Positions 5,515 through 21,065 of a stretch of 64,000 nucleotides of DNA are shown here, in pieces. Origin of the DNA: Paragorgia papillata (Eukaryota; Cnidaria; Anthozoa; Scleralcyonacea; Coralliidae); contig JAWNZC010000419.1 of assembly GCA_035771165.1 (NCBI GenBank), positions 4,491,001 through 4,555,000 on the forward strand, written 5' to 3'. Position 1 is the first letter of the stretch, and each line of letters opens with the position of its first letter. A program made the translations under genes and the position numbers. Under the pieces are notes generated by a model. The model was not told the DNA's origin. It was given only the letters and a program-made list of their open reading frames with translations, and ran no database searches.

Positions 5515-5535
5515 TTTATCCCTTTATTATAGTAA
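5515..5535 (-). promoter_or_regulatory. TATAATAAA box upstream of PolB
   Basis: Read on the minus strand, CTATAATAAAGGGATAAA immediately precedes the PolB ATG. The same TATAATAAA core, 4-10 bp before the ATG, precedes the genes starting at 5941, 16217, 17267, 17363 and 19562. Promoter function is inferred from recurrence only. Confidence 0.5.
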
Positions 5536-5561
5536 GATTTTGCAAAAAAAAAAATCGATTT

Positions 5562-5588
5562 AATTTCATATATATTGTATATGAAATT
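5562..5588. terminator. Hairpin downstream of the 105-aa gene
   Basis: AATTTCATATA pairs with TATATGAAATT (11 bp, short loop) about 36 bp beyond the stop codon of the minus-strand gene 5624-5941 and just upstream of the PolB box. It has the position and form of the other gene-end hairpins in the element. Confidence 0.4.
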
Positions 5589-5623
5589 TTTTAAAAAAAG
5601 GAAGTGTAATATTAAAAAACTGA

Positions 5624-5941
5624 CTATTTGGTGACGGAATACAAACACCCCTTTATTAATACAGTTTTTTCTTTTAGAAATTTGTAAATGTAATTTGGAT
5701 TTACATCAAGATGTTTTGCCGCTTTGTATATGCTTGGAAATTGTAAAATTTCGCCGTTTTTCATGTTTTCAATTGTAATTGGAACTGGTGTTCCAATTTT
5801 GTTTTTGTTATGTGTATCAAATGCTTGGTTTCTTACTAACGTAAGACCAAGTTTTTCGCATAAGGTTTTACTATTCATTTTTGAAAAGTATTTGATTCCT
5901 CTTTCTTTACCCATTTGTCTTAATTTTCTTATTGTATACAT
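5624..5941 (-). CDS. Small putative DNA-binding protein (105 aa)
   Basis: Residues about 5-32 (KLRQMGKERGIKYFSKMNSK...) resemble a SAP-like helix-extended-helix segment. Residues about 58-103, with FPSIYKAAKHLDVNPNYIYK, look like a NUMOD1-type helix-turn-helix. Both suggest nucleic-acid binding, possibly as a regulator or replication accessory. The ATG follows a TATATAATAAATAAC box. It is transcribed in the same direction as PolB, and across the divergent repeat region from the 6408 gene. The domain calls are by eye from short motifs. Confidence 0.6.
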   Translation of the reverse strand: MYTIRKLRQMGKERGIKYFSKMNSKTLCEKLGLTLVRNQAFDTHNKNKIGTPVPITIENMKNGEILQFPSIYKAAKHLDVNPNYIYKFLKEKTVLIKGCLYSVTK

Positions 5942-6407
5942 TGTTATTTATTATATATCTTTTTTAAAGTGTCCCACTTTAAATATTGGTTTAATGGATG
6001 ATTTTTAACTTTAACTTTAACTTTAACTTTAACTTTAATGCACTTTCTTTATTATACAAAAAAATGAAAAGTTGTCCCTCCAAAATGGTTCCAAAAATGG
6101 TTCCAAAAAGTGTCCCACTTTAAATATTGGTTTAATGGATGATTTTTAACTTTAACTTTAACTTTAACTTTAATGCACTTTCTTTATTATACAAAAAAAT
6201 GAAAAGTTGTCCCTCCAAAATGGTTCCAAAAATGGTTCCAAAAAGTGTCCCACTTTAAATATTGGTTTAATGGATGATTTTTAACTTTAACTTTAACTTT
6301 AACTTTAATGCACTTTCTTTATTATACAAAAAAATGAAAAGTTGTCCCTCCAAAATGGTTCCAAAAATGGTTCCAAAAAGTGTCCCACTTTAAAATTACT
6401 ATAATAA
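5942..6407. repeat. 135-bp tandem repeat in a divergent intergenic region
   Basis: Just over three copies of a 135-bp unit (the first is 141 bp because it has one extra ACTTTA). Each unit has GTGTCCCACTTTAAATATTG, then (ACTTTA)n, then paired TGGTTCCAAAAA. GTGTCCCAC recurs at 5971, 6112, 6247 and 6382. The region separates the start of the minus-strand 105-aa gene from the plus-strand 166-aa gene. Shorter copies of the same motifs occur upstream of the genes at 17267/17363 and 19562. A shared enhancer or replication role is plausible but unproven. Confidence 0.85.
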
Positions 6408-6908
6408 ATGGTTTACAAAATATTTAACTTTAATCATGTCTCAAAAGATTTAACTGAAGACCAAATAACGAGATTTAAGGAAATGTATGCACACTACCAC
6501 AGACTAACAAAATGTTATGAGAGAATGTATAAAAAAAGCAAGTACAAAGACAACATTTTTATGGCAATAAAAGTACTTTTAATATCTGGTAGCACTGGTG
6601 GAACTGTTTTGGGTTGTATCACACTTAATCCATTGATTTTAGGTGCGATGTCAGGTTTGGGGCTTTTGATAGCTGGTTATATGCGAAAAGCTAATTTATC
6701 AAAAGCGGTGGATAGAAACAGGTTTGCCTTCAAAAATTATAGAAAGGTGTTGAATAATCTTAGAGAGTTTATGCGAGGGGTTCACTTTGATCAGGTTCAG
6801 TTTGATGGAAAGCTGATGGTGATTGACGATTTGGTTCGGGAGATGTGTTTTGAGATTTCGGACAGCGTTGACAAGTGGTATGCCCAGGAATACGAGAGTA
6901 GTTCTTGA
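6408..6908 (+). CDS. Two-TM membrane protein (166 aa), SLATT-like layout
   Basis: Two adjacent hydrophobic helices (about residues 50-70 and 73-92; AIKVLLISGSTGG..., LNPLILGAMSGLGLLIAGY) lie between a charged N-terminal helical region and a C-terminal helical cytosolic-looking region. This arrangement resembles SLATT-type two-helix membrane proteins, but I cannot confirm homology. The ATG is fused to an ACTATAATAAATG box, the same type as the capsid genes. The last 140 bp overlap an antisense reading frame (6769-7050). Confidence 0.75.
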   Translation: MVYKIFNFNHVSKDLTEDQITRFKEMYAHYHRLTKCYERMYKKSKYKDNIFMAIKVLLISGSTGGTVLGCITLNPLILGAMSGLGLLIAGYMRKANLSKAVDRNRFAFKNYRKVLNNLREFMRGVHFDQVQFDGKLMVIDDLVREMCFEISDSVDKWYAQEYESSS

Positions 6909-7050
6909 CTGTTTTGTTTGTCCAACTCATTTGTAAATTTCCTTCTATTGTTTCAGAATCTTTTCCGAAATTGATGCCAAGCTGGAACCCTTTTCGGGTG
7001 TTGTGGCTTTTATTAAGTTTTTCTTTTGTTTTACTTTTTGAGTTTCCCAT
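6769..7050 (-). CDS. Possible myristoylated small protein (93 aa)
   Basis: Begins MGNSKSK, which fits the N-myristoylation pattern (G2, small residue at 3, S6). The first half is basic and coding-like; the second half is antisense to the 3' end of 6408-6908. An AATAAAATG box precedes the ATG, but the ATG itself falls inside a strong hairpin (7043-7068) that may instead be the 3' end of 7085-7639. I rate it as possible only. Confidence 0.4.
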   Translation of the reverse strand: MGNSKSKTKEKLNKSHNTRKGFQLGINFGKDSETIEGNLQMSWTNKTVKNYSRIPGHTTCQRCPKSQNTSPEPNRQSPSAFHQTEPDQSEPLA

Positions 7051-7068
7051 TTTATTAAAAATGGGAAA
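7043..7068. terminator. Perfect hairpin downstream of 7085-7639
   Basis: TTTCCCATTTT pairs with AAAATGGGAAA (11 bp, ATTA loop) 17 bp after the stop codon of the minus-strand gene 7085-7639. It lies between that stop and the converging plus-strand gene, matching the other 3'-end hairpins. Confidence 0.5.
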
Positions 7069-7084
7069 TTAAAATAATAATGTT

Positions 7085-7639
7085 TTAATCAGTATTAACT
7101 CCACCGTTATCGGAATTAGAAGTATCGCTACTATTGTTGCTTGCGCTAGAACTTTGATTACTTTGTACTTCATCTTGTGTTTCTTTATCTACTTCGTTTT
7201 TGGGATTATCCCACATATGTTTTGCTAGTATTAAACCACCTGAAAACAAACCAATCATAGGAATGTAGGGAGATACCTTCATAACCATTGTTTTAACATC
7301 GTTGTGGAAAAGTTTGTTTGATGATAACTCCTTGTCTAAGTTACCATTGTTTTCAACCATATTTAGTTGTTCCATTAATTTTGAAAACTTGGAAATAAGA
7401 CTTTCCGTTAACTGTGAGTTGACCTTGTCCATTTGTTCGCGTTGATGGTTTTCCTTAATTTTTTCTAATGCGGTTTGACTCGCCTTTTTGATATATTTTT
7501 CCGAGTACTTAATTTCTTTTGTGACTGACAAGCGTAGTAACTCATCTCTAAGGTTGTTATCCTGTGAGGTTTGCGGAGCATCGCTGAAGCTTTGCGAATA
7601 AGTTAATTCCTCTTCAAAGTTAAGTTTTTCTGTGTTCAT
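7085..7639 (-). CDS. Coiled-coil protein with one TM segment (184 aa)
   Basis: Function not recognised. Acidic N-terminus, a helical/coiled-coil middle (about 40-100), one hydrophobic segment (about 122-140, YIPMIGLFSGGLILAKHMW) and a Ser/Asn/Asp-rich tail. The start overlaps the stop of 7636-8937 in an AAATGA arrangement, so the two genes are linked. A structural or virion-associated role is inferred only from position and the membrane segment. Confidence 0.75.
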   Translation of the reverse strand: MNTEKLNFEEELTYSQSFSDAPQTSQDNNLRDELLRLSVTKEIKYSEKYIKKASQTALEKIKENHQREQMDKVNSQLTESLISKFSKLMEQLNMVENNGNLDKELSSNKLFHNDVKTMVMKVSPYIPMIGLFSGGLILAKHMWDNPKNEVDKETQDEVQSNQSSSASNNSSDTSNSDNGGVNTD

Positions 7640-8937
7640 TTATTAGTGGGTAAAAACGTTTTTACGTTTTCGTAAAGAATATAAGCGAAAGCAATAGCTA
7701 ATATCCACAAATTTTTTGATAACCACAATAATCCTTTGGATCCAAGTAACATCATTTTGGTGAGTAACTTAAATAACGTCATTAACACAGGCAGAGCCGC
7801 TTGTAACATTTTTAACTGAAGTTTTGCTAATTTTAACGTAGTTTTTGTAAGTTTGACTGCAAGTTTGGCCGCTAGTTTTGCGGCGTTAGTTAATCCTTTT
7901 TTTCCAGCTATGACCACAGTTGTTATAATGCCAGCAATGGAAATAGATATTGCCGATAGCACACCCAGGTTGTTTTTTGCAAAATTTTTAAATTTTTCGA
8001 ATTTTGTTATGTCACCATTTTTAATCATTTCTAAGGTTTCTTCCCTTTCAGGTTTTAAGTTATTTTTTAACCTAAGTTCTTCGGCTTTTAACTTAGCCAC
8101 ATTTGAAATATCTTTGTAAACAGCTTTTTTTCGGACATCAGTTTCAGCTTTTGCCTTGTCTTCCCAATACTTAACAGATATTTCAACAGCATCTAAGTTG
8201 TCTATGTTATCCACAGCTAGTATTCCACCAAGTTCTCTTAGTTCTTCATCTGTAAGTTGTGTTCTGTCAACCGAGTTATTACCTATTTCTATTTCATCTT
8301 GAATGTTATTGATAACATTTGCTCTAATTCCGTTAACGGCTGGTGTACCAGGAAGACTACCAACAATTTCCTCAATAGAACCATTTGCGGTTTTGCTATG
8401 TTCGTAACGCGCTTTTTCCATAAGATGGGTGTATTCTTGAACAACGGACTTAATTTTTTCACTCTCGCTTAAATTAAAACCATTTCCTTTTCTAACAACA
8501 ACTCTTGTATTGTCGTAAAGAATTCCGTTTACCTTCCCAGTTTTTTCACTTATTGAAATTAAACTTTTGTTTATTAGCTCTCTTGATGCGGGACCATCTT
8601 TCATCACTATTTCTTGATTAAAATTATTACGGAAAAAAGTTTTTCGCGTTTTTGTGATTCTCCGTTTTTCAGCGGTTTCCCACCGTTTTAGTCTGTTTTT
8701 CAAGGTGTTTTCTTCTACATTTTCTTCTTCAGTTGTATTTACGTCTCTTGCTTTTACCCACGCGTTAGGATCAAACGGGTCTAAATCTGGTCTTCCTTCC
8801 AGATCAATGTTTTCATCGTAGTCATCGTCATCGTCAAGATCATCATTGTTGTAATCGTTTATAAGATCTGTTTCTTCTTCGCCACGCATTTCCGCTTCAC
8901 TGTTATCATTAAAAGTGTCAAATTCAAATCCTTCCAT
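7636..8937 (-). CDS. Large acidic-N / amphipathic-C protein (433 aa)
   Basis: Function not recognised. Residues 1-70 are strongly acidic. The middle is charged and helical. The last ~115 residues are repeated Lys/Leu/Ala-rich amphipathic or hydrophobic helices (NNLGVLSAISISIAGI..., AAKLAAKLAVKLTKT, a terminal TM-like WILAIAFAYILY). Such tails interact with membranes in some virion proteins, so a minor virion or membrane-active role is a reasonable guess. It starts five bases after the integrase stop, with an AATAAATAAAATG box in the gap, and overlaps the next start by four bases. Confidence 0.8.
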   Translation of the reverse strand: MEGFEFDTFNDNSEAEMRGEEETDLINDYNNDDLDDDDDYDENIDLEGRPDLDPFDPNAWVKARDVNTTEEENVEENTLKNRLKRWETAEKRRITKTRKTFFRNNFNQEIVMKDGPASRELINKSLISISEKTGKVNGILYDNTRVVVRKGNGFNLSESEKIKSVVQEYTHLMEKARYEHSKTANGSIEEIVGSLPGTPAVNGIRANVINNIQDEIEIGNNSVDRTQLTDEELRELGGILAVDNIDNLDAVEISVKYWEDKAKAETDVRKKAVYKDISNVAKLKAEELRLKNNLKPEREETLEMIKNGDITKFEKFKNFAKNNLGVLSAISISIAGIITTVVIAGKKGLTNAAKLAAKLAVKLTKTTLKLAKLQLKMLQAALPVLMTLFKLLTKMMLLGSKGLLWLSKNLWILAIAFAYILYENVKTFLPTNK

Positions 8938-8942
8938 TTTAT

Positions 8943-9971
8943 TTATTGTAAAACTTGAACCAACTCTTCATCGTAAAACTTTCCAATAACATTTTCACCT
9001 GAGTTGTCTTCAATGTTGTACATCACCGGATCACCGCGAAACACAGCTGATATTTTAAAAACTTCACTTGTAAAATTAGGGTCATATCCCTTTGCAAAGT
9101 TCTTTTTGTATTTGTATATTCTTACATGGTCGCCAACCTTAAATTTGGGTGTTGGAAATTTTGTTGGTGGTAAACCGTATAAAGTTAAGAATACCTCATC
9201 TTGGTTATTAAAATTAACGCTATTAGGTTTTCTTTTAATGGTTGAGTGAAATGTGTTGTTATAACTTTTGGTGAGTTTGTCTAAAACTGGTAACCAAGTT
9301 TTAGTTTGTTCAGCGGTAAAATATTTCCACATCCTTGTTTTTAATGTTCTGTTAAATCTTTCTACAATAGCTGCCTTACGTTCTGAAAGTGTTGAAAAGT
9401 ATTCTATGTCATGAGATTTTAAAAGGGATTTCACTCCAACATTATAAAATTCATTACCATTATCAAACTGAACAACCTCGGGATACTTTTGAAAATGATG
9501 TTTAAATTCCTTTAACATTTTACCAACTCCTTCTACCATACTTTCTGTATTTTTTCTGTGCACAGGAACGGTAAAAGCAAACCTACTTAAAATTTCAACT
9601 CCTGTTAATATCCAGTTAAATCTTTTGTTTACAAAACTAAACTTAGCCATATCCACTAAGTCCATTTGAAGCTGGTCGGCTAAATTTTTAACGAAAGTCC
9701 TTTGCGTTTTACGTGGTTTTCTTAGCGGTTTGTGTAGTGTGTATGTACTTTGTGAAGACAACCACTCCTTAACTAACTTTCTTGTAACTCCTTCCACATT
9801 TTTTTCAACCGCCTTTTGGTAAAGCTTTTCCGCACTTTGGTAACCGGTTACAGGATTGTAATATATGTTTCTTAACTCAAGGTCAAGTAAAGTTAAAATC
9901 GGAGAGTCGTCTGCGACTTCGCTTCGCTTTTCGCGGTGAAAACCGTTTGGTTTTTGTGTTAGGGTAGTCAT
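8943..9971 (-). CDS. INT: Retroviral-type DDE integrase
   Basis: 342 residues; catalyses insertion of the linear element, producing the 6-bp duplication seen here. RNase-H-fold core with D104 (QMDLVDM), D170 (QFDNGNEF) and E204 (AIVERFNRTLK), giving a D,D(33)E spacing. The N-terminal ~90 residues are helical. The C-terminus (about 275-342; FKVGDHVRIYKYK...) is the SH3/chromo-like domain typical of Polinton and Ty3-type integrases. The triad is complete and the frame intact. It is divergent from 9988-11475 across a palindrome that contains both start codons. Confidence 0.95.
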   Translation of the reverse strand: MTTLTQKPNGFHREKRSEVADDSPILTLLDLELRNIYYNPVTGYQSAEKLYQKAVEKNVEGVTRKLVKEWLSSQSTYTLHKPLRKPRKTQRTFVKNLADQLQMDLVDMAKFSFVNKRFNWILTGVEILSRFAFTVPVHRKNTESMVEGVGKMLKEFKHHFQKYPEVVQFDNGNEFYNVGVKSLLKSHDIEYFSTLSERKAAIVERFNRTLKTRMWKYFTAEQTKTWLPVLDKLTKSYNNTFHSTIKRKPNSVNFNNQDEVFLTLYGLPPTKFPTPKFKVGDHVRIYKYKKNFAKGYDPNFTSEVFKISAVFRGDPVMYNIEDNSGENVIGKFYDEELVQVLQ

Positions 9972-9990
9972 TTTATTTATAAATAAAATG
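9969..9990. promoter_or_regulatory. 22-bp palindromic bidirectional start region
   Basis: The core ATTTTATTTATAAATAAAAT plus flanking C and G is a perfect 22-bp palindrome whose two ends are the ATG of the integrase (minus) and the ATG of 9988-11475 (plus). Each gene therefore has an identical ATAAATAAAATG leader of at most 16 bases. Bidirectional promoter function is inferred. Confidence 0.6.
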
Positions 9991-11475: not shown

Positions 11476-11991
11476 TTAGCCATACTTTCTGTACATCCAG
11501 CTAAGACTCATCAACAAACAGTCTGCCATATCATCTGCTTTTTTAACATCAAGTAAAAGTAAGGTTTCTTGATCTCCACGTTCTTCCATTATTTTTTTAG
11601 CGTGTTGTACAGCCCACTTTTTACGTGATTTGTAATCGCCAAGCTTAACCCCAAACACACTTGTTTTAAATTTTGGGGAGTACAGTTCTAGTTCCACGTT
11701 AGGATACAGCAAAGAAACCAATGTCCAAACGTGTTGCATTAACCGAACACAGTTTGTGTTTTGTCTAACTTGTTTTTCTATTAAAACATTAGTAACCGCA
11801 AATGTTTTAAAAACATTTTGAATAATATCAGAAACGCTATTGAGAACCGCAGTTGAAACCTCCTTTCTCCCATTTTTTGCCAAACATGAATTTTTTAGTT
11901 CTTTCACACAACCAGAAAGCGGATCCTTTGTATATTCTTCCACACTGTAACAAAAATTTTTAATTCCAATGTCTATGGATAATATTAACAT
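11476..11991 (-). CDS. RuvC-fold Holliday-junction resolvase (Cce1/A22-like)
   Basis: 171 residues. N-terminal ILSIDIGIKNFCYSV is the beta-1 strand signature of the mitochondrial Cce1/Ydc2 and poxvirus A22 resolvases, with D7. A second acidic residue is E72 (VLIEKQ), and the C-terminal helix has KKADDMADCLL with D153/D154 and D157. These four acids are the expected metal-binding set. It would cut branched DNA formed during replication or telomere/TIR resolution. The ATG follows ACAAAATAAATG. It is divergent from the capsid block across a repeat-rich spacer. Resolvases are not part of the standard animal Polinton core set. Confidence 0.85.
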   Translation of the reverse strand: MLILSIDIGIKNFCYSVEEYTKDPLSGCVKELKNSCLAKNGRKEVSTAVLNSVSDIIQNVFKTFAVTNVLIEKQVRQNTNCVRLMQHVWTLVSLLYPNVELELYSPKFKTSVFGVKLGDYKSRKKWAVQHAKKIMEERGDQETLLLLDVKKADDMADCLLMSLSWMYRKYG

Positions 11992-12280
11992 TTATTTTGT
12001 ATGTTTTAACAGCTAGCTATTACATACAAAATAACAAATTTATAATACAAAATAGCTAGCTGTATAACTAGCTATATAACTAGCTATTACATACAAAATA
12101 ACAAATTTATAATACAAAATAGCTAGCTGTATAACTAGCTATATAACTAGCTATTACATACAAAATAACAAATTTATAATACAAAATAGCTAGCTGTATA
12201 GCTAGCTGTTACATACAAAATAACAAATTTATAATACAAAATAGCAAAAAATAGCAAATGTGTTAATTTCGTCATAATAA
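11992..12280. repeat. 67-bp tandem repeat with TAGCTAGCT dyads
   Basis: Four units with spacing 67, 67 and 55 bp, each holding AACAAATTTATAATACAAAA and one or more TAGCTAGCT / ACTAGCTATA dyads. It fills the divergent space between the resolvase gene and the capsid block. Dense dyads plus AT-rich spacers could be a promoter array or replication-related site; no function is shown. Confidence 0.8.
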
Positions 12281-12622
12281 ATGAGTGAACAACGAACTAT
12301 TACAAAACATGAAGAAGCAACAAGGGTAAAAAACCCAAAAAGAGTTGCACAAGGATACAGACTAGCTGAACTAAGCAAGAACGCAAAAGCTAAAAAAAAG
12401 GAAGCCCGTCAACAGCAAAACGAAGAGCAAAGCGGTGAAGGCGAATCTTTAATGTTACCTGGGTTATCAACATCATTAAGTATAGTTGGTGCTGTAACTG
12501 GTATAATAGGAACATACATTGTATGGAAGCAGTACACTGGGACAAAAAAAAAAGAAAAAGTAGAACCTAAAAAAGTATCAAAAGAAGTGGTGTTTAACAA
12601 TCTTGATAACGATGATATATAA
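12281..12622 (+). CDS. Small basic single-TM protein (113 aa)
   Basis: First gene of the plus-strand virion block. N-terminal ~50 residues are basic (KNPKRVAQGYRLAELSKNAKAKKK), then a hydrophobic helix (about 62-86, LSTSLSIVGAVTGIIGTYIVW) and a charged tail. Likely a small virion or assembly protein by position. ATG fused to CATAATAAATG. Family not recognised. Confidence 0.75.
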   Translation: MSEQRTITKHEEATRVKNPKRVAQGYRLAELSKNAKAKKKEARQQQNEEQSGEGESLMLPGLSTSLSIVGAVTGIIGTYIVWKQYTGTKKKEKVEPKKVSKEVVFNNLDNDDI

Positions 12623-12633
12623 TTTTATTTAAA

Positions 12634-12659
12634 TTTTGTAACAAAATTTTGTTACAAAA
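12634..12659. terminator. Hairpin between 12622 and MCP
   Basis: TTTTGTAAC pairs with GTTACAAAA (9 bp) 12 bp after the stop of 12281-12622 and ahead of the TATAATAAATG box of the next gene. Candidate 3'-end signal. Confidence 0.4.
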
Positions 12660-12674
12660 ATTACACTATAATAA

Positions 12675-13883
12675 ATGAATAAGGAACGACAAACTAAGTT
12701 AAAACCAGGTTATAAACGTTTACAAAAAAGCGAAATAACCGGTGAACGTACAAGACATGTCACAACATTTAATCCTAACAAAGCCAATCCAGGAGAAGAA
12801 ATTTATATTCAGATTCCAAAACTTAAACCTGGGACAACTCTTGTTCCAGACAAAATGTTTCTTGTTTTTGACTTTAAAAACGCAAACACCAAATCGTGGT
12901 TTAATAACAACCTTGCAAAACAACTTCAAAAGCAACTGAAAGTTAAATTTGCAGGTGAAATTATTTACGACAACACAGGTGAAAGTTTACTTAGAACCTA
13001 CGAAGATCTGTGGTTAAATAGCGACGAGCGTGCCAATATGTTGGAGGATGGCATTGCCACCGAAAACCAACGTAAGGTAATTTCAAAGTCGGACGATGCT
13101 TCATCTGATGCGTACGCCTCAGTTTACGGCAACAAGCAAAGAATTCAACTAGGAAAAATTCTTATGGATCATGGTTTATACGCTCCTTACAACATGAGCA
13201 ACGACTTACAGTATATCATTACACTCCCACAAGCTAGCGAAATTATGCAAGCACAAAACAACCAAGCAGTTGAAGGATATAGCTTAGAAAACATTGAACT
13301 GGAATTCGAAACCATCACCAACAACGACCTTGTTCGCGAAGTCGAAAGTGGATACAACGCAGGGAGAAGTCTTAGTTTTGAACACGCTACCCTTTTGAAA
13401 AAGGTGGAATGGAACAAAACAACAACTCTTGTTAACGAAACCATTAATTTACCACGAAAGAGTATGAAAGCTGTTGTAATGCTTTTCACAAAGGGAACCC
13501 GTGGTGGATCCGAAGAGTTTGTTTTCCCAAACATTGAAAACGTGAAAGTTACCATTGAAGGTATTCCTAACAGTGTTTACTCGCAGGGAATAATTAAAAG
13601 AAGACTGTTCGAAGAAGCAGAAAGACTTTTCAAACAGGACACCAGCGCTGTTACCGCAAGTAGCTTCTTCACCGGCGACAAGTTTGCTTTGGTAGTCGAT
13701 CTTAGAACCATTGACGACAACGAATTATACGGACATGGAACAAAACTTTTGTCAACCCAATCTGGTATCATGTTGGAAATTACAAAAAAAGCAACAACTG
13801 TAAACCTTAACTGTTATATTTTTATACTTTCAGATGGTGTTCTAAAGGTACAAGCAGGAGATTTCCGAGGAGTTACTTACTAA
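12675..13883 (+). CDS. MCP: Major capsid protein (double jelly-roll)
   Basis: 402 residues. The sequence has the features I associate with Polinton major capsid proteins: a basic N-terminus, long stretches of beta-strand pattern, and the conserved-looking block YGNKQRIQLGKILMDHGLY followed by Asn/Ser-rich loops and a second beta-rich half ending in GDFRGVTY. It is short compared with many Polinton MCPs, but the downstream order MCP, ATPase, penton supports the call. The start is fused to an ACTATAATAAATG box. No break in the frame. Confidence 0.85.
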   Translation: MNKERQTKLKPGYKRLQKSEITGERTRHVTTFNPNKANPGEEIYIQIPKLKPGTTLVPDKMFLVFDFKNANTKSWFNNNLAKQLQKQLKVKFAGEIIYDNTGESLLRTYEDLWLNSDERANMLEDGIATENQRKVISKSDDASSDAYASVYGNKQRIQLGKILMDHGLYAPYNMSNDLQYIITLPQASEIMQAQNNQAVEGYSLENIELEFETITNNDLVREVESGYNAGRSLSFEHATLLKKVEWNKTTTLVNETINLPRKSMKAVVMLFTKGTRGGSEEFVFPNIENVKVTIEGIPNSVYSQGIIKRRLFEEAERLFKQDTSAVTASSFFTGDKFALVVDLRTIDDNELYGHGTKLLSTQSGIMLEITKKATTVNLNCYIFILSDGVLKVQAGDFRGVTY

Positions 13884-13905
13884 GCAGAGTAAACAAAGTA
13901 AATAA

Positions 13906-14490
13906 ATGAATTCCTTTAACATGATAATAGTTGGAATGACGGGATGTGGAAAAACACATTACCTTCTTGAAATGTTAGAAGAAAAATGTTATAAACAGTT
14001 TGAAAACATATTTTTAATTTGTCCAACTTTTGAGTGGAACAAAACCTACCTAAACTGGAAACATTTAAACGATCCAAATTTCTTTGTTATACCCTGTAAC
14101 CAGGATCAAACAGACGAGCTTCTGAAATTTGTTGTGGAATACTGCAAAGGAAGTCCATCGTTAATTATACTTGATGACTGCGCTGCTGGACAGTCGGTAA
14201 AAAACCGAACTAGTGAGTTGGTAAAACTTGGATTTGGTGCAAGGCATATGCATATCAGCACAATAGTAATTACACAACAACTAACAAGTATTGCGAAACC
14301 GTATAGAGAAAATATTTCAAAACTAGTGTCTTTTTACAATCCAAACAAAAAGGATATGCAGGTTATCCTAGATAATTATTTAGACGTTTCAAAAGATGAA
14401 GAGAAAAAAATAAAAGAAACATTAAAAGAAAAAAAATATAGTAGGTTAGAGATCAACCTAAAACATCCATACAATCATGAAATAGTATAA
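13906..14490 (+). CDS. ATP: FtsK/HerA-type genome-packaging ATPase
   Basis: 194 residues. Walker A GMTGCGKT (10-17), Walker B SLIILDD (85-91) and a sensor-type ITQQ (122-125) give the A32/FtsK-HerA packaging ATPase pattern. It would drive DNA into the capsid. Compact length fits Polinton ATPases. It starts 22 bp after the MCP stop with an AAATAAATG box and is followed by a hairpin. Confidence 0.93.
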   Translation: MNSFNMIIVGMTGCGKTHYLLEMLEEKCYKQFENIFLICPTFEWNKTYLNWKHLNDPNFFVIPCNQDQTDELLKFVVEYCKGSPSLIILDDCAAGQSVKNRTSELVKLGFGARHMHISTIVITQQLTSIAKPYRENISKLVSFYNPNKKDMQVILDNYLDVSKDEEKKIKETLKEKKYSRLEINLKHPYNHEIV

Positions 14491-14498
14491 AAAGTGTA

Positions 14499-14529
14499 AA
14501 AATCATATGTTTTGTTGGCATATGATTTT
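14499..14529 (+). terminator. Hairpin with T-tract after the ATPase gene
   Basis: AAAATCATATG pairs with CATATGATTTT (11 bp, 9-base loop), followed by a run of T, eight bases after the ATPase stop. It ends immediately before the AAATAAATG box of the next gene. Confidence 0.55.
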
Positions 14530-14541
14530 TTTTTTAAATAA

Positions 14542-15180
14542 ATGAGTCTTTTAAGAATTTTCATGGAAAAAAACAATGAAATGGAAACCATTGTTAAATT
14601 TGATGAACCTTTAGTCATCGAAAACAAAACAATGACAGTAAAGTGTGCAAGGGTGTTTTGGGATTTTAATAACATTACAGATCCTATTTTTATTGCAAAT
14701 GGTAGTAAAAAATTATGGTTTAAACCTGGTTATTGGACCGCCAACATGATTGTTGAAAAATTAGCGGAAGTAAACGCAAAAGCAGAGCTAGTACATTATT
14801 CGCAAAAAATTAAAATTACACCAACAGAAATCCTTTCATTAGAAAAACTGGCTCCAATTCTTGGTTTCTCTAAAACACGGATGGTTATTCCAAAAGGAAG
14901 TGGTTGGACTTCTAACACATCTGTTAATGTCAACCTTGGTTTAAAATATATTAACATTAAGTGCAGTGCTGTTAACAAAAACGAAACATCATTTCAAGGT
15001 CAACGGGATGGTTCCATCGCAATTCTTCCAATCACAACCACCCAGTCATTAAAGGGCACCGTTACACACTACGACAACATCAACAGTGAAACCAAACTAA
15101 ACGACGGAATTTATAACGAACTAAAGTTTTCGGTAAGCCATGAGATTGGTGACATATTGTTAGAAATAACGATAAAATAA
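14542..15180 (+). CDS. mCP: Minor capsid (penton-like) single jelly-roll protein
   Basis: 212 residues, about the expected size for the Polinton penton protein. Central ILGFSK followed by a Gly/Ser/Thr-rich loop, then alternating beta-strand pattern (VNVNLGLKYINIKCSAV, ILPITT, a final LLEITIK) fits a single jelly-roll. It lies directly after MCP and the ATPase, the usual order. The 14542 start is chosen because the AAATAAATG box includes it; other ATGs occur seven and thirteen codons in. Confidence 0.8.
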   Translation: MSLLRIFMEKNNEMETIVKFDEPLVIENKTMTVKCARVFWDFNNITDPIFIANGSKKLWFKPGYWTANMIVEKLAEVNAKAELVHYSQKIKITPTEILSLEKLAPILGFSKTRMVIPKGSGWTSNTSVNVNLGLKYINIKCSAVNKNETSFQGQRDGSIAILPITTTQSLKGTVTHYDNINSETKLNDGIYNELKFSVSHEIGDILLEITIK

Positions 15181-15181
15181 A

Positions 15182-15265
15182 ATGGCACTAAATTATGGTT
15201 TTGAAAAAGCAAGTGTAACATGCAACAAAAATCTGGAGTGTTATCTAACGACACGTCTGAATTAA
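15182..15265 (+). CDS. Possible 27-aa microprotein
   Basis: A short frame starting MALNYGFEK and ending TTRLN opens two bases after the penton stop, and its ATG sits in an AAAATAAAATG context like other genes here. It fills most of the 121-bp gap before the next gene. Nothing else supports it. Confidence 0.3.
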   Translation: MALNYGFEKASVTCNKNLECYLTTRLN

Positions 15266-15301
15266 AACTTTTCATGACGTTGTAAAATTCTACTATAATA
15301 A

Positions 15302-15523
15302 ATGATTGAAACAAAACGTGAAGTAATGCAAGATTTATACGATGCCGCACTAGTTACCGCTGGAGCCGTAGTTGTAAGTATGGTTTCTAAAAAAGTGGCT
15401 GGTCAGCCTTTAGCCGCACCAGCCAGTCTAAAGGATGCCGCAAAGTTAGCTGTCGCTGTTGCAGTTGGTAGCTTCTTGGTAAAAAAAGGGCAAACCGCGG
15501 GGTACATCCCCCTTAAAGTTTAG
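15302..15523 (+). CDS. Small two-helix hydrophobic protein (73 aa)
   Basis: Ala/Val-rich with two hydrophobic segments (about 16-30 and 45-61), Lys at the edges; no family recognised. Position in the capsid block and an ACTATAATAAATG start box suggest a small virion membrane or cement protein. Confidence 0.75.
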   Translation: MIETKREVMQDLYDAALVTAGAVVVSMVSKKVAGQPLAAPASLKDAAKLAVAVAVGSFLVKKGQTAGYIPLKV

Positions 15524-15534
15524 AGTATAAATAA

Positions 15535-15936
15535 ATGGTATCAATGATAGCAGGAGGATTATTTAATGCGGTTGCCTTTGCAGGAGCTGGTTACTTATTC
15601 TCAACGTTTAACAAAAAAGGTTACCAAGAAGAAGCAAAAAGACACAACCTTGCAATGGAAGAACAGCAAAAGGCTAACGAAGCCTTCCGTGAACAAGAGG
15701 TAGCAGCAAGGAACAAAGAAAAAAAACTCCAAGAAGAACTTTACAATGCAAAAGGTGATATTAAAGACACCAACAAAGCACTTGCAGAATTACAACAAGT
15801 CCGAAACATAAGAAACATACCGCCACCAAAACTAGAAGACTATTATCAACCATCGTCTGAAATGAAAAAATATCAGATTATGGCTGTTGGTTTAGCAGGT
15901 ACTGGTGGTGGATGGTTACTACACAAGTTGATATAA
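15535..15936 (+). CDS. TM-coiled coil-TM protein (133 aa)
   Basis: N-terminal hydrophobic helix (about 3-22), a charged Gln/Glu/Lys coiled coil (about 30-90), a Pro-rich linker (NIPPPKLEDYYQP) and a C-terminal hydrophobic helix (MAVGLAGTGGGWLLHKL). Likely a membrane-spanning virion component; function not known. Last gene of the plus-strand block, starting in TATAAATAAATG. Confidence 0.75.
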   Translation: MVSMIAGGLFNAVAFAGAGYLFSTFNKKGYQEEAKRHNLAMEEQQKANEAFREQEVAARNKEKKLQEELYNAKGDIKDTNKALAELQQVRNIRNIPPPKLEDYYQPSSEMKKYQIMAVGLAGTGGGWLLHKLI

Positions 15937-15942
15937 GCTTTT

Positions 15943-15969
15943 AAATTCCTATTTTTAAAATAGGAATTT
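15943..15969. terminator. Bidirectional hairpin between convergent genes
   Basis: AAATTCCTATTTT / AAAATAGGAATTT forms a 12-13 bp stem followed by a T-run, between the stop of 15535-15936 (plus) and the stop of 15981-16217 (minus). The same ATTCCTATTTTT stem is reused at 17927-17954, also between convergent genes. Confidence 0.6.
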
Positions 15970-15980
15970 TTTTTTTTTAA

Positions 15981-16217
15981 TTAAAGTTCATCAGTAGCTG
16001 AGGATTCTGGTAAATCTTTTTCATCCAACCAATTATTCAATTCTTCATCAGTTTCAAAGTTTACATTTGGTACAGTGTAAACTTCATTTTCGAAATCCCA
16101 TACTACACGATCACCAAATGTGTCAAAAAGCTCAGTTAAATTACTAAACCAATACAGTTCATGGTTTGAAACAACTATGTAACCTTCTGGATCTTCGTAT
16201 TGTAATTCGTTATTCAT
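15981..16217 (-). CDS. Small acidic protein (78 aa)
   Basis: Acidic, aromatic-rich protein beginning MNNELQYED and ending with an Asp/Glu-rich tail; family not recognised. The upstream-most ATG at 16259 would lie 5' of the TATAATAAAAGAG box, so the ATG at 16217, just after that box, is the likelier start. It is convergent with the capsid block. Confidence 0.6.
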   Translation of the reverse strand: MNNELQYEDPEGYIVVSNHELYWFSNLTELFDTFGDRVVWDFENEVYTVPNVNFETDEELNNWLDEKDLPESSATDEL

Positions 16218-16222
16218 CTCTC

Positions 16223-16250
16223 TTTTATTATAATGTAAATTATAATAAAA
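16223..16250. promoter_or_regulatory. 12-bp palindromic TATAATAAAA element
   Basis: TTTTATTATAAT pairs with ATTATAATAAAA around GTAA. On the minus strand it supplies the TATAATAAAA box for the gene starting at 16217 and sits just past the stop of 16262-16465, so one palindrome may serve as both 3' hairpin and promoter. Confidence 0.45.
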
Positions 16251-16261
16251 AAAAATCAATT

Positions 16262-16465
16262 TTAAGCGTTGTTCATAAGGTAAACCCAGTATTCAATGCA
16301 GTAAAATTCGTTAAAATTTTTTTGGTCGTATTTGCTATACATCACCCAAAGGTTGTATCCTTCGTTGCTACCATTTGTGAGATTAAAAATAAGTTTACCA
16401 ATATCGAACCAAGTTTTAGATTTGAATTCACACTTTGCAACATTAATGTTGTTTTTAACTAACAT
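16262..16465 (-). CDS. Stand-alone PriCT-2-like module (67 aa)
   Basis: Almost the whole protein is one module: W19-x3-G23, G36-Y37-x2-W40, S44, C56-x3-W60. This matches the pattern of the neighbouring 270-aa protein at equivalent spacing and resembles the PriCT-2 (primase C-terminal 2) domain found between primase and helicase domains. No primase or helicase is attached. It overlaps the 3' end of 16455-17267 by 11 bp and starts after TTTTAAATAAAG. Likely a paralogue of its neighbour. Confidence 0.6.
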   Translation of the reverse strand: MLVKNNINVAKCEFKSKTWFDIGKLIFNLTNGSNEGYNLWVMYSKYDQKNFNEFYCIEYWVYLMNNA

Positions 16466-17267
16466 CTTTATTTAAAAGACTATTAACTATGTTAAAACAC
16501 CCTGCGTTACACAATTCGTTTAAAAGTTTCTTCTTTTTTACTTTAGGTTCTAGTTTTTTCCGTTCTTCTACAGTTGTTTTAAAATATCTTGGTGTAAAAC
16601 CCGCGTTGTCAAATGATTTTAAATAGCTGGTTGTTCTTTCTAACCAAAGTCGGTCGTTGTTAATGTAAGGTTTAATGTTTGTGGCTTTTGGGTTTGGTTT
16701 TTCTTTTTCATCGCTGTTGTGCCAGCTAATGATACTGTTGATATCACAGCTAAACCTAAAACGTTTGTACTTCCATGTTAAGGTAAAAGTTTTTTTTAAT
16801 TCTCTGTCTTTAATTCTTTTACAAATTTCTGCTAAAATGTGTCCGTCTTTTCCTTCTGACATGGTAAACACCGCAGAACAAAGGTTGTTAAGAGCTTTTT
16901 GATTTCGCATTCTTCGGATTGATAACTTAGGAATAATGATGTTGTAAACAAAGTTTCTCACTTCTACATCTAAAACTATTTGTGTTTCACTTGGATTATA
17001 GGTTGTTCCTCCGTCTTCGTAAATCATGGGAATTAATAGTCTTATTGCATATAGTTTAACTTGTTTTTTAAAGTAAAGCCATTTTTTGTCGCAAACCTCT
17101 TTGCTGTAATTTTCATGACGTTGGGAAAACTGATGCCAAACTTTGAAACCTTCTTTGGATCCATTGGAGCAGTTATAAATAACACATCCGGTTGTGTACC
17201 AGGATTCGGAATAAGGTTTGGCACGGTTTACCGAAAGTTGAGTTAAGTAAAAGTTTAAAGTATTCAT
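16455..17267 (-). CDS. PriCT-2-like protein (270 aa)
   Basis: N-terminal module W23-x3-G27, G40-F41-x2-W44, F47-S48, Y54, C59-x3-W63 resembles the PriCT-2 domain of primase-helicases. The remaining ~200 residues are basic and helical with no Walker motifs that I can see, so it is not a helicase by itself. Possibly a DNA-replication adaptor; that is inference from the domain only. Start follows CTATAATAAAGAG. Divergent from 17363 across a 95-bp spacer with GTGGGACAC/GGAACC motifs. Confidence 0.65.
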   Translation of the reverse strand: MNTLNFYLTQLSVNRAKPYSESWYTTGCVIYNCSNGSKEGFKVWHQFSQRHENYSKEVCDKKWLYFKKQVKLYAIRLLIPMIYEDGGTTYNPSETQIVLDVEVRNFVYNIIIPKLSIRRMRNQKALNNLCSAVFTMSEGKDGHILAEICKRIKDRELKKTFTLTWKYKRFRFSCDINSIISWHNSDEKEKPNPKATNIKPYINNDRLWLERTTSYLKSFDNAGFTPRYFKTTVEERKKLEPKVKKKKLLNELCNAGCFNIVNSLLNKDVS

Positions 17268-17362
17268 CTCTTTATTATAGCAAATTTAAAGTGGGACACT
17301 TTTTGGAACCATTTTTAGAACCATTTTTGGAACCATTTAAAAAGATATATAATAAAGGAATA
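17268..17362. promoter_or_regulatory. Divergent promoter with GTCCCAC/GGTTCC motifs
   Basis: Holds a TATAATAAA box on each strand, one for each divergent gene, and between them AAAGTGGGACACTTTTTGGA followed by repeated GGAACCATTTTT. These are the inverted form of the motifs in the 135-bp repeats at 5942-6407 and in 19597-19638. Confidence 0.5.
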
Positions 17363-17917
17363 ATGGATTACATTAAAAAAAATGCGTTAGTTTCAAAGTT
17401 TCAAAAACTAATCTATCAAGACGAAATGCCGTCACTAAAAACGTTTGAAATTGAAGTTAATTTTAATTTCATAATATTTCCGGTTGGCGAACTCGAAAAA
17501 ATTTACGTGTTCATTGAAATAATGCAAAACAAGAAAAACCGGGGCCGTCTTTCAGATGCGCTAAAAAATATGTTTAAAATGCTTATTGACCATATAATTG
17601 GTCATGATACCGTTACAATTTTAAACGAAAGGAATAACAAAAAATACTATATGTTATACAAAAACATCTTCAAAGAATTTAACAGAAAGAAAATCTACCA
17701 ACAAGAATACGGACTTTATACCATTCCGTACAACCCTACCGGAACCAAAAGAAGAAATGCATATCCTGAAAAATATGGATTAGAATCATACAATGCGTAC
17801 GAATTAGAAAACTATACGCTAGAAGATTCGGATGACGAGGATGGAAAAGATTTTGCAGAAAGTCTATACGATATGGTCACTTTTAAACCAAAAAGGTGTA
17901 AACATTGTAGAATGTAA
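17363..17917 (+). CDS. Unrecognised 184-aa protein
   Basis: An upstream open frame reaches 17192, but the ATG at 17363 follows the TATATAATAAAGGAATA box and is the likely start. Mixed alpha/beta pattern, an acidic stretch (EDSDDEDGKD) and a C-terminal basic CKHC motif. Family not recognised. Convergent with 17964-19562 across a 28-bp palindrome. Confidence 0.65.
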   Translation: MDYIKKNALVSKFQKLIYQDEMPSLKTFEIEVNFNFIIFPVGELEKIYVFIEIMQNKKNRGRLSDALKNMFKMLIDHIIGHDTVTILNERNNKKYYMLYKNIFKEFNRKKIYQQEYGLYTIPYNPTGTKRRNAYPEKYGLESYNAYELENYTLEDSDDEDGKDFAESLYDMVTFKPKRCKHCRM

Positions 17918-17926
17918 TAGTAAAAA

Positions 17927-17954
17927 AATTCCTATTTTTTAAAAAATAGGAATT
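17927..17954. terminator. 28-bp perfect palindrome between convergent genes
   Basis: AATTCCTATTTTTT and its exact reverse complement meet with no loop, centred between the stops of 17363-17917 (plus) and 17964-19562 (minus). Nearly the same sequence as 15943-15969, at the equivalent place between another convergent pair. Confidence 0.6.
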
Positions 17955-17963
17955 ATGACTTCT

Positions 17964-19562
17964 TTATGCCCTTTTAAGTTGTTTAATATAATCCCTTTTA
18001 AGTCTTTCATCAACCATAGTAATGTTAAAGTTGTATAACTCTATCTTTTTTTCTTTACGAATTCCGTTAATTCGGATAATTTCCTCGTTAAGTTCGCTTT
18101 CTTTTTCGTTCTCAAAATTTGTGCTTACAATTGATTTCAGTGGTTTTAACACCCTTCTATTGGCTTTTATGTATTTTTCGATTGTTCCTTTTTTGTACTC
18201 TTTTGTGTACGCAGTGAAGTTGTAGTTATCATCTACAGCAAGGGTAAACCCGTTGCTGAAAAAGTGATGAGATATTTCCTCGTTTCGGAAATATCTAAGA
18301 TATATAAGTTTCTTTTTGGACCAGGTAGGTGTAGAATAGTTTTCCCACATTTCAATGGAAAATCGTAATGAAAAGGTGCTATCCTGTTTTTTGGTGAAGT
18401 TTAACCAAAGGTTGTGAAGAGATGGACAACCATCTGACAGTTTGTGTAAAAGATAACCATCATCCATCCATATCTTTCCGCCAAATGAATAAGGTGGTAG
18501 TGATGCTGTGGAAACACATCCTTTGTTCCACATTTCCCTAACACAGTCATGACTATAGTTTTCGCCACACATTTTTAGCGAAAACTTTTTCCATAGGTAA
18601 AACAGTCTTTCTTTCATGTTGTTGTTCTCATTAACCGCCATTCTACTTAGGATCTGACCGCACCTTACCCAATCCTTAAGGTTGTGATTAGCGGTAAAGG
18701 CGCTTTTTCTGTTGGTCTGAATTGATGAGTAATCGGGATCACCCTCTTTTCTTTCTCCTTTCTTAAGTTTCTCTGGCTTGCGTGGTGGTGGCATAGAACA
18801 GCCTTCCTCAACTAATCCACAGTTTATACAAAAATAGTTGTCGCCCTCCTCTTCCTTAATTAGGTGAAAGCAGTTGTCGATAAAGTCTCTGGGACTGTGT
18901 TCTTTACAGAACTTTTGATCACATTTCCTTTCACAGTAGTCACCCTTAAAAGAGTGTAAACAATAGTTTTGAAAATTACAACCTTTTACTGGTGAAAATG
19001 GTTGTTTAAAATCGTAATTTGGTGGAAATGTTTGTGGTTTTTCTCGTTGTTTTTTAATTGCGTGTAACATTTGACTAAACATTAGTGATGTTTCACTACT
19101 AAAATAACCAGGCTTGGTTCCCAAAAGTTTGGCTCTTGGTGCTGACAGCCTTATCACTCCTGGTATGCCTGAATCTTCAATAGACGGTAACTCGTCAGCA
19201 AGTTTTTGAAAACACTCTTTTTCACGTTTTTGTTCCAAGGTTAAAGGTTTTTCTTCTTTTTTAGGTTTCATCGGTTTTACTGGTTTTTTGTCTAATCTTT
19301 GTTCAGCTTTTTTTAGTTGATTTGTTTTACGCTTTTCCCCTAGCGGAACAGTCACCTTTGGTGGTCTCTTTGCCTTTCTTTGTTCAGCTTTCTTTAGTTT
19401 CTTTTCTTCTGCTGTTACTATTGGTTTCATCGGTTTTTTAGCTAATCTTTGTTCAGCTTTCTTTAGTTTCTTTTCTTCTGCTGTTACTATTGGTTTTACT
19501 GATTTTTTAGCTAATCTTTGTTTAGCTTTTCTTAATCTTTCTTTTTCACGTTTTTGTTCCAT
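17964..19562 (-). CDS. Repeat / zinc-cluster / PriCT-2-like protein (532 aa)
   Basis: Residues ~1-110 are four imperfect ~23-aa Lys/Ala/Glu repeats (KKAEQRLAKKP...). Roughly 190-265 is a Cys/His cluster (C-x5-C, YCERKC, FCKEH, CINCGLVEEGC) that should bind zinc. From ~296 and ~366 are two segments with W-x3-G, LW-x2-F and later Trp spacing like the PriCT-2 modules at 16262-17267. No polymerase, primase or helicase catalytic motif is clear. A nucleic-acid-binding replication factor is the best guess. Start follows TATATAATAAAGGAAT with GTGTCCCAC/GGTTCC motifs upstream. Confidence 0.65.
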   Translation of the reverse strand: MEQKREKERLRKAKQRLAKKSVKPIVTAEEKKLKKAEQRLAKKPMKPIVTAEEKKLKKAEQRKAKRPPKVTVPLGEKRKTNQLKKAEQRLDKKPVKPMKPKKEEKPLTLEQKREKECFQKLADELPSIEDSGIPGVIRLSAPRAKLLGTKPGYFSSETSLMFSQMLHAIKKQREKPQTFPPNYDFKQPFSPVKGCNFQNYCLHSFKGDYCERKCDQKFCKEHSPRDFIDNCFHLIKEEEGDNYFCINCGLVEEGCSMPPPRKPEKLKKGERKEGDPDYSSIQTNRKSAFTANHNLKDWVRCGQILSRMAVNENNNMKERLFYLWKKFSLKMCGENYSHDCVREMWNKGCVSTASLPPYSFGGKIWMDDGYLLHKLSDGCPSLHNLWLNFTKKQDSTFSLRFSIEMWENYSTPTWSKKKLIYLRYFRNEEISHHFFSNGFTLAVDDNYNFTAYTKEYKKGTIEKYIKANRRVLKPLKSIVSTNFENEKESELNEEIIRINGIRKEKKIELYNFNITMVDERLKRDYIKQLKRA

Positions 19563-19636
19563 ATTCCTTTATTATATATCTTTTTAAAAAGTTATCCCAA
19601 AAACGGTTCCAAAAATGGTTCCAAAAAGTGTCCCAC
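19563..19636 (-). promoter_or_regulatory. Upstream region of 17964-19562 with shared motifs
   Basis: TATATAATAAA lies next to the start of the 532-aa gene, preceded by GGTTCCAAAAATGGTTCC and GTGTCCCACTT, which also occur at 5942-6407 and 17287-17340. Confidence 0.5.
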
Positions 19637-20377
19637 TTAAATGTCATGCTGGTCCATTATTTTTTTGTTTATGTTTACAATATCATTTGTTTCTAAAAAT
19701 CCGCTAATTACCTTAATATCGTAAATCTCTCCTTTAAACGGTTTTGATAACGGTCCTGTGGTTCCTGTAAACCTATCGTTCACAAATATTGTACTACATG
19801 TTTCGCCAATGGTTTTTGGATTTGCATAAAAATCTGAATCTACTGACTTTACACCATTTACGTATACACAACTTCCGGACAGTAACCAATGACATGAAAT
19901 TATATGTTTTTCAAAAATATTAACATCACTTTGAATTGTACAGTTGTACTCTTTTGTAGGAAAACCGCCTCCATACGAAAGTTGGTTTGTTGATGCTGAT
20001 TTGTATCCAATAAATTTATCGTAACCACCATTATCGTTACCAATAACATATGCCCATTTTCCAGAGTTGCTAATGTTTGTAATAACACGCACCACGATAA
20101 AAACTGAAACATTAATACTAACCATTTCCAGACATTTAAATATCATAAAACACTTTCTAGTGTTTCGCACAAAATTTGGTCCAGGTATTGGTCCTCTGCT
20201 GTACTCACTTTAAAAAAGTGAATATTCATTGTCTTGCACTCTTCCAACTCTAACACCTTTATCGGATTGTCCGGTTTTTACAGCTTTTTGTAAATTAACG
20301 TCAAAAACAGTTTTGTAAGCATAGCCGTACTGTTGATGTTCAATTATCTTGTTTTCATAACCATAGTGTATACTCAT
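19637..20377 (-). pseudogene. LamG-like lectin gene with one in-frame stop
   Basis: The frame opening at the ATG 20377 (preceded by AAATAAAAAATG) runs in phase to 19637, about 246 codons, broken only by a TAA at codon 56 (20210-20212). The downstream part has the beta-rich pattern of a laminin-G/concanavalin-A-like domain (GKWAYVIGND, SCVYVNGVKS, FKGEIYDIKVISG), suggesting glycan or surface binding. The downstream part has no good ATG near its 5' end, which argues for one gene broken by nonsense. A small 6-bp hairpin (CACTTT/AAAGTG) surrounds the stop, so a separate 55-aa gene or stop-codon readthrough cannot be excluded. Confidence 0.6.
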
Positions 20378-20388
20378 TTTTTATTTAA

Positions 20389-20729: not shown

Positions 20730-20735
20730 AGGATG
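20730..20735. repeat. Target-site duplication, right (AGGATG)
   Basis: Same hexamer as 1475-1480. Removing the element plus one copy restores the 18-bp minisatellite in register (AACAGGATG joined to GAGTAC). Confidence 0.93.
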
Positions 20736-21058: not shown

Positions 21059-21065
21059 AAAACAA

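Follow-up and report, generated by a model that had tools for sequence, protein, structure and literature searches.

How the genes of Polintons are transcribed is, to our knowledge, an open question, and it is posed here by a 19.2-kb Polinton lying in a 64,000-nt stretch of the cnidarian Paragorgia papillata genome (NCBI GenBank assembly GCA_035771165.1, contig JAWNZC010000419.1, positions 4,491,001 to 4,555,000 of the forward strand; this whole stretch is called the window below, and positions refer to it). The initial annotation had claimed that an AATAAA-type box stands at essentially every gene start of the element, in two spacing classes. This observation is confirmed and is stronger than first stated: the box was found at all 19 starts on the earlier list, every one of them an ATG, and at 20 of 21 main open reading frames (ORFs) chosen mechanically. 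Beyond the start box, stem-loops were found after stop codons, and these are new here. The element probably uses a compact viral transcription code, made up of a poxvirus-like TAAA(T) initiator and hairpin 3′ ends.

The start box in the element and in its sister copies

A box was scored where AATAAA ended 0-10 nt before an ATG, the A of which may be shared. Only 6 of the 583 other ATGs of the element carried such a box (Fisher test against 19/19, 4.4e-31), as did 2 of 48 intergenic ATGs that are not starts and 24 of 1370 ATGs in host DNA. The initial annotation had proposed a comparison with shuffled sequence, and here too the box stood far above expectation: after dinucleotide shuffling of the 60-nt upstream regions a mean of 1.4 and a maximum of 6 of the 19 starts were boxed, and after shuffling of the last 25 nt only, a mean of 2.65 and a maximum of 8. 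As the listed starts had possibly been picked by the motif, the count was redone on the mechanically chosen ORFs. The 20 of 21 given above applies to main ORFs of at least 60 amino acids (aa); at a length of at least 100 aa the count was 16 of 17, and shadow ORFs carried the box in 0 of 14 and 0 of 2 cases, respectively. The lone main ORF without a box, 19637-20146, is part of the gene starting at 20377 (19637-20377, minus strand). This gene is split in two ORFs in the window and is a single ORF in the sister copies L085 and L087, so the window copy looks broken; in L085 it starts with a boxed TATAAATAAAAA-ATG (here and below, a hyphen precedes the start codon).

The 618-Mb genome holds at least 150 matches to the packaging ATPase gene of the element (989 first-look candidates, of which 150 were scored). 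We read 83 sister pieces, which together with the window's own locus (L004) gave a set of 84 pieces, one per copy; copies lacking a usable start or stop, being truncated or near a piece edge, were dropped before counting. With strict placement, 304 of 316 starts were boxed (L004 included), and 85 of 90 after near-identical copies had been removed, compared with 189 of the 9821 other ATGs in the copy loci. Along the stretch from the probable major capsid gene (MCP) to gene 15535, covered by 60 loci, the ATG nearest to the window's start was boxed in 53/54, 59/60, 58/59, 51/52 and 36/37 usable copies; 20 further pieces gave 13/13 for the integrase, 15/15 for gene 12281, 11/14 for gene 9988 and 4/9 for the resolvase. 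Among non-redundant copies of eight genes, pairwise identity was 0.54-0.82 in the box, compared with 0.31-0.45 for the flanks; the comparison was gapless and anchored at the ATG, so that upstream indels depress the second of these values. Information at 72 non-redundant starts of six late-type genes peaked at positions -5 to -1 (AATAA) with 1.3-1.9 bits, the next highest value being 0.67.

The ATPase copies are 84-100% identical, and only 8 of the 150 are interrupted by an internal stop, which suggests recent spread. Scans of viral contigs and of genome contigs gave no relatives, and a further scan of genome contigs gave three stray contigs. Of the 4 gene starts on a distant Polinton-like contig from a Limnohabitans metagenome-assembled genome (L002), 2 (807 and 1798) have the fused form of the box, as do 3 of 132 ATGs overall, numbers too few to conclude from; nothing comparable was seen in L001 and L003 (fused box 1/146 and 0/724).

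The codons behind the boxed ATG indicate where the box acts. In codons 2-11 the synonymous fraction of changes was 0.34-1.0 in all nine genes compared, against an expected 0.18-0.25; these counts run over non-independent copy pairs, and the expectation assumes equally likely changes with no transition bias. This excess makes it very probable that the box-adjacent ATG is translated, and that the RNA begins at or upstream of it. As the mRNA should contain this ATG, one would not expect the box to be a TATA element lying about 30 nt before the RNA start, and no conserved element near -30 was seen in the copy alignments; both points rule against a TATA element at -30 for RNA polymerase II (Pol II).

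That host Pol II nevertheless reads the box, either through a Polinton-encoded factor or as an unusual Pol II initiator, is in our view possible if somewhat unlikely. The element is integrated and nuclear, the offset boxes (TATAATAAA) are TATA-like, and ATTAAA, the second poly(A) hexamer, is common after the stop of gene 15535, where 15 of 24 copies have ATTAAA or AATAAA. A further lead is the 532-aa protein of gene 17964-19562, in which a CxxC-like segment reminiscent of a zinc ribbon was seen by eye only. Against this, a canonical TATA would put the RNA start inside ORFs in which selection acts on the first codons, nothing is conserved near -30, and AATAAA is scarce at ends with no same-strand start behind them (3/51 copies). 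A TFIIB-like identity of the 532-aa protein was considered and retained as a lead only: its best Pfam match had an E value of 0.48, no database or PDB match supported it, and structure prediction failed (mean pLDDT 35.5).

The box might instead be a translation-start context, with promoters elsewhere, which we consider very unlikely. At 13 of the 19 starts there is little or no gap between it and the ATG, and AT-rich contexts are frequent ahead of start codons. The usual Kozak preference is for a purine at -3; the 72 late-type starts have the opposite, T at -3 in 85%, which speaks against a context of this type. In addition, the offset boxes keep their sequence yet stand 3-8 nt away, and the full TATAATAAA is present at 9 of the 19 starts.

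Still less can the box in general serve the gene upstream as its poly(A) signal, an account that the data contradict and that is extremely improbable. The box contains AATAAA, and at 10 of the 19 starts the preceding gene has the same orientation. The remaining nine are divergent or first, all nine are boxed, and there the motif cannot serve an upstream gene. At free 3′ ends of the copies, AATAAA was found in 2/24 for gene 15535, 0/16 for gene 9988, 1/9 for the A22-like resolvase, and 0/1 each for gene 17363 and the 532-aa gene, a rate that we estimate to be about that expected from base composition. At tandem genes AATAAA could double as a poly(A) signal. Two other candidates were set aside. 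Tandem in-frame stops (TAA-TAA) before the ATG suit many fused starts, but not AAATAAA-ATG or the offset class, and for trans-splicing the boxes lack an AG acceptor, as judged only by eye.

Two spacing classes and the gene content of the element

The box is fused to the ATG (distance 0-3) at 13 of the 19 starts, including those of the integrase, the probable capsid gene, the ATPase and the resolvase. The initial annotation had worded this class as (T)ATAATAAATG or AAATAAATG, which is literally true of 8 of the 13; the other five read CTAATAAATG (7639), AAATAAAATG (8937, 9971 and 9988) and AAATAAAAAATG (20377). At the remaining six starts the box is offset as had been described, with spacers of 3-8 nt and not 4-10 nt, and TATAATAAA is followed by G in 4 of the 6, by A then G at 16217 and by T at 5941. 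In the sister copies the two classes are strongly supported for fused starts, and for offset starts in few copies (4/5 boxed in the strict count); in the right-arm pieces L084-L087 the offset form was recognized by eye at several starts. The exact form AATAA-ATG occurs at 9 of the 19 window starts, and in the copies at 55/55 starts of MCP, 58/60 of the ATPase, 56/59 of gene 14542, 50/52 of gene 15302, 15/15 of gene 12281 and 25/34 of gene 15535. It was found in 0/13 integrase copies and 1/14 copies of gene 9988, which mostly have AAATAAA-ATG.

On the plus strand, fused boxes lie at 6400..6408 (gene 6408-6908), 12274..12281 (gene 12281-12622), 12667..12675 (probable capsid gene, 12675-13883), 13900..13906 (A32-like packaging ATPase, 13906-14490), 14536..14542 (gene 14542-15180), 15294..15302 (gene 15302-15523) and 15529..15535 (gene 15535-15936). 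Those on the minus strand are at 7639..7644 (CTAATAA-ATG, gene 7085-7639, within the end of the upstream gene), 8938..8944 (AAATAAA-ATG, gene 7636-8937), 11991..11997 (A22-like resolvase, 11476-11991) and 20380..20386 (gene starting at 20377). The integrase (start 9971, minus strand) and gene 9988 (plus strand) share a 16-bp palindrome, TTTATTTATAAATAAA, at 9972..9987: the two ATGs are 16 bp apart and face outward, with a box on each side. The spacer varies among copies, and AAATAAA-ATG is mostly kept on both sides.

Offset boxes on the minus strand are found at 5523..5531 (polymerase-like ORF, 1657-5514), 5947..5955 (NUMOD1-like gene, 5624-5941), 16224..16232 (gene 15981-16217), 17271..17279 (PriCT_2 gene, 16455-17267; 2/2 copies) and 19568..19576 (532-aa gene, 17964-19562; 1/1 copy, L084), and on the plus strand at 17348..17356 (gene 17363-17917; 1/2 copies). 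The full TATAATAAA occurs 13 times in the element, always in intergenic sequence: nine occurrences are at starts, three are within a 135-bp tandem repeat upstream of 5941, and one is an orphan at 16241 (plus strand), which points away from the 16217 box and has its next same-strand listed start more than 1.1 kb off. The repeat consists of three tandem 135-bp units at 6010-6414, each bringing a minus-strand TATAATAAA (6056, 6191 and 6326), and is possibly a multiplied promoter.

A longer module, composed of GGTTCC repeats and AAAGTGTCCCACTTTAA, lies upstream of the starts 5941 (minus)/6408 (plus), 17267 (minus)/17363 (plus) and 19562 (minus). Its instances are at 6352..6393 on the plus strand (AAAATGGTTCC twice, then AAAAAGTGTCCCACTTTAA; repeated at 6082-6123 and 6217-6258), at 17284..17327 between the divergent starts 17267 and 17363, and at 19588..19641 before 19562; an altered GGTTCC module was seen by eye in copy L084. 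Gene 6408, fused by spacing, carries this module of the offset class and is grouped with that class by module. The division by function that had been proposed, with virion genes and the integrase in the fused class and polymerase and putative replication genes in the offset class, is therefore not clean. Likewise, the resolvase is fused in the window and has CTAAAG-ATG in 5 of 9 sister copies, and the label of virion gene has a basis in homology only for the ATPase and, weakly, for the capsid gene. Between the divergent resolvase and 12281 starts, at 12013-12268, there are 67-bp tandem repeats with CTAGCTA words, and similar words occur in sister copies.

In its integrase, packaging ATPase, long terminal inverted repeats (TIRs) and 6-bp duplication the element fits the Polinton/Maverick type. 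The TIRs, 341 bp long and exact, occupy 1481-1821 (plus strand) and 20389-20729 (minus strand), and AGGATG flanks the element on both outer sides as a 6-bp target duplication, with the caveat that the minisatellite around the element itself contains AGGATG. This is an 18-bp minisatellite (MEYKNR-type repeat) spanning 335-1480 and 20730-21080. The integrase (8943-9971) matched PF00665 (rve) with an E value of 1.6e-7 and 32.0 bits, narrowly missing the cut-off of 32.6; its best 120 of 2080 relatives have 51-61% identity and nearly all PF00665, and among these 120 the only organism named was the octocoral Paramuricea clavata. The A32-type ATPase matched PF04665 (E 6.2e-16), and Pfam also identified the A22-like resolvase and the PriCT_2 gene; the NUMOD1 match of gene 5624-5941 (E 2.4e-4) is slightly below its cut-off. 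For the 1285-aa ORF 1657-5514 the only Pfam match was Endonuclease_7, the family B polymerase motifs having been spotted by eye only. ORF 12675-13883 is probably the major capsid gene according to a low-confidence model (mean pLDDT 58.8): 14 of 32 Foldseek matches (E<=1e-3) were named capsid or coat proteins, the query TM was at most 0.28, and the PDB sequence match was unconvincing (best E 0.33). No Pfam match to a Ulp1-type cysteine protease was found among the 20 ORFs scanned, and an Rfam scan of the window gave two tRNAs only.

Stem-loops after stop codons

A perfect stem of at least 10 bp lies within 60 nt of 8 of the 19 stops (6 distinct hairpins), compared with a mean of 0.095 and a maximum of 2 in shuffles. 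Sequence windows with a stem of at least 11 bp numbered 13 of 920 in the element. On the minus strand, stem-loops follow the stops of 1657-5514 (1598..1623, coordinates derived from the offset; an AT-only 11-bp stem inside the left TIR), 5624-5941 (5562..5588; 11 bp, or 9 under the 60-nt limit) and 7085-7639 (7043..7068). On the plus strand they follow gene 12281-12622 (12634..12659) and the ATPase, where the stem-loop is accompanied by a T-run (14498..14530). Two more are common to convergent gene ends, at 15943..15969 between 15936 (plus) and 15981 (minus) and at 17927..17954 between 17917 (plus) and 17964 (minus), the basis of the latter including copy L084. The stem-loop at 7043..7068 overlaps the boxed start of a further ORF, 6769-7050 (minus strand, 93 aa, MGNSKSK...), which begins at TTTTTAATAAA-ATG within it. 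The box at this start predicts an extra gene, whose N-terminus we take to be myristoylation-like.

Hairpins were retained in non-redundant copies at the ends of the ATPase (33/41), gene 15535 (16/20) and gene 12281 (10/31), where 0.3, 0.4 and 0.9 were expected. The core of the ATPase hairpin, CATATG, is nearly constant among copies; at the end of gene 12281 the stem sequence differs from copy to copy, and only the 10 of 31 have a stem of at least 10 bp. For gene 15535 and the ATPase, alignments (A4, A5) were made from copies whose stem is perfect over 9 bp or more, using 14 of 18 stem copies (20 non-redundant) for gene 15535 and 20 of 33 (41 non-redundant) for the ATPase; as only stem-bearing copies were aligned, the percentages paired lean towards structure. 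Cells with compensatory changes exceeded all 500 shuffles (20 vs. 4.9 and 12 vs. 3.4). Two of the five covariation measures were weak: changes on both sides were matched in 11/500 and 95/500 shuffles, and further pair types in 22/500 and 99/500.

Likeness to viral transcription signals

In the reading that we favour, the box would be the core promoter or initiator of the element's own transcription code, with the RNA starting in, or just upstream of, TAAA. At the late-type genes (probable capsid gene, ATPase, integrase and neighbours), where the box is fused to the ATG, this would give nearly leaderless mRNAs. The polymerase-like and right-arm genes, with the box 3-8 nt upstream and often a GGTTCC/GTGTCCCAC module further upstream, may be of an early or intermediate type, and transcripts would end at stem-loops that follow the final stop of a single gene or of a tandem group. 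The data are better matched by machinery resembling that of large DNA viruses than by ordinary Pol II signals of the TATA and AATAAA kind.

As described in the available part of PMC11980589, the late promoters of vaccinia carry TAAAT and, as a rule, a G behind it that overlaps the start codon, whereas in intermediate promoters TAAA stands ahead of the ATG and only some continue with TG (also the accessible text of PMC5294985). The element shares with them a TAAA-T core over the ATG in the late class and a second class with TAAA upstream, that is, the same fused/offset split as in the vaccinia late and intermediate promoters of PMC11980589. It differs in having AATAA(ATG), often ACTAATAA or TATAATAA, and in being an integrated Polinton with no polymerase gene among the ORFs scanned. 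Mimivirus transcripts end at palindromes whose sequence is not conserved (PMC4402537, in part), and Marseilleviridae palindromes are concentrated between ORFs (PMC5413956, in part). Palindromes after stops occur above chance in the element as well; in contrast to these viruses, no RNase III or poly(A) polymerase was found among its 20 ORFs, hairpins stand at some ends only, and the ATPase hairpin, unlike those of mimivirus, keeps its CATATG core nearly constant.

Among virophages, Sputnik and Mavirus bear the late promoters of their helpers, and Sputnik also has mimivirus hairpins, at 16 gene ends (excerpts of PMC6723459), while endogenous mavirus-like elements have diverse promoter motifs (excerpts of PMC8547959). 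Sputnik and Mavirus resemble the element as double-stranded DNA in which many or all genes share a single promoter motif, and Sputnik also in its hairpins; the gene set of the element, with rve integrase, A32-like ATPase and A22-like resolvase, is of Polinton type, and its motif differs. A virophage-like control, in which the box and hairpins are signals of a co-infecting large DNA virus whose polymerase transcribes the Polinton, is a more specific form of the reading that we favour and, on balance, unlikely. It would account for a Pfam scan of 20 ORFs without an RNA polymerase, and for stems that vary at the end of gene 12281 as do the unconserved mimivirus palindromes (PMC4402537, in part); poxviruses use the fused TAAATG as their late signal (PMC11980589, in part). 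On the other hand, a single helper would need poxvirus-type starts together with mimivirus-type ends. Polintons, moreover, encode an integrase and are considered nuclear.

Several results weigh against a compact viral code of the element. In the copies, the box is missing at 5 of 9 A22 starts, at 3 of 14 starts of gene 9988 (ATG nearest to the window's start; in these three, an ATG 33 nt upstream does follow AATAAATAA), once at each of four other genes, and at the start of the unsplit gene 20377 in L087 (AAGATAAACA-ATG). The copy counts come from a single genome with mutually related copies, and the tests covered 83 sisters of at least 150 copies and genes other than those from 5514 to 8937. 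Hairpins are scarce at other copy ends (MCP 2/29, gene 14542 0/29, gene 15302 0/17, gene 9988 0/11, A22 0/9), 2 of the 13 windows with a stem of at least 11 bp are not beside a stop, and a 13-bp stem at 11992-12034 lies in the resolvase/12281 promoter region and not after a stop. Compensatory changes fit an RNA hairpin and a DNA palindrome alike, such as one that the A22-like resolvase would process. A T about 10 nt upstream was present in 0.59 of 108 rows and, without two T-rich genes, in 28 of 68 (p 0.10); only at MCP and gene 14542 is the upstream T tract, in the manner of poxviruses, a strong one, which weakens the case for it as a general feature. Finally, among the 20 ORFs Pfam identified neither an RNA polymerase or capping enzyme nor an RNase III or poly(A) polymerase, and the reader of a viral-type code would be either host Pol II with an element-encoded factor or a helper virus. 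That this is an abundant Polinton lineage, integrated in the genome of a large eukaryote, wired like a virophage and silent until a large DNA virus supplies the polymerase seems to us distinctly unlikely; such a lineage would combine a late box in the style of giant viruses and poxviruses at its starts with giant-virus-style hairpins at its ends.

A code of start box and hairpin was described for no Polinton in the titles and abstracts of the literature searched, full texts not being covered. The accessible parts of a vertebrate Maverick paper (PMC8097293) do not discuss Maverick promoters, and those of PMC11071308 and PMC12085832 hold nothing on Polinton promoter or end signals. In the cited literature, as far as these partial texts go, promoter and end signals are described for poxviruses, giant viruses and virophages and not for Polintons. 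The strict start box and the end hairpins lead to predictions that can be checked, namely exact RNA ends, timing classes and extra genes such as 6769-7050. The code bears on which of three ways the Polintons of large eukaryotes follow: self-sufficiency, use of host Pol II, or dependence on a helper virus. If it is old, it would bear also on how large DNA viruses came by their late promoters and hairpin ends.

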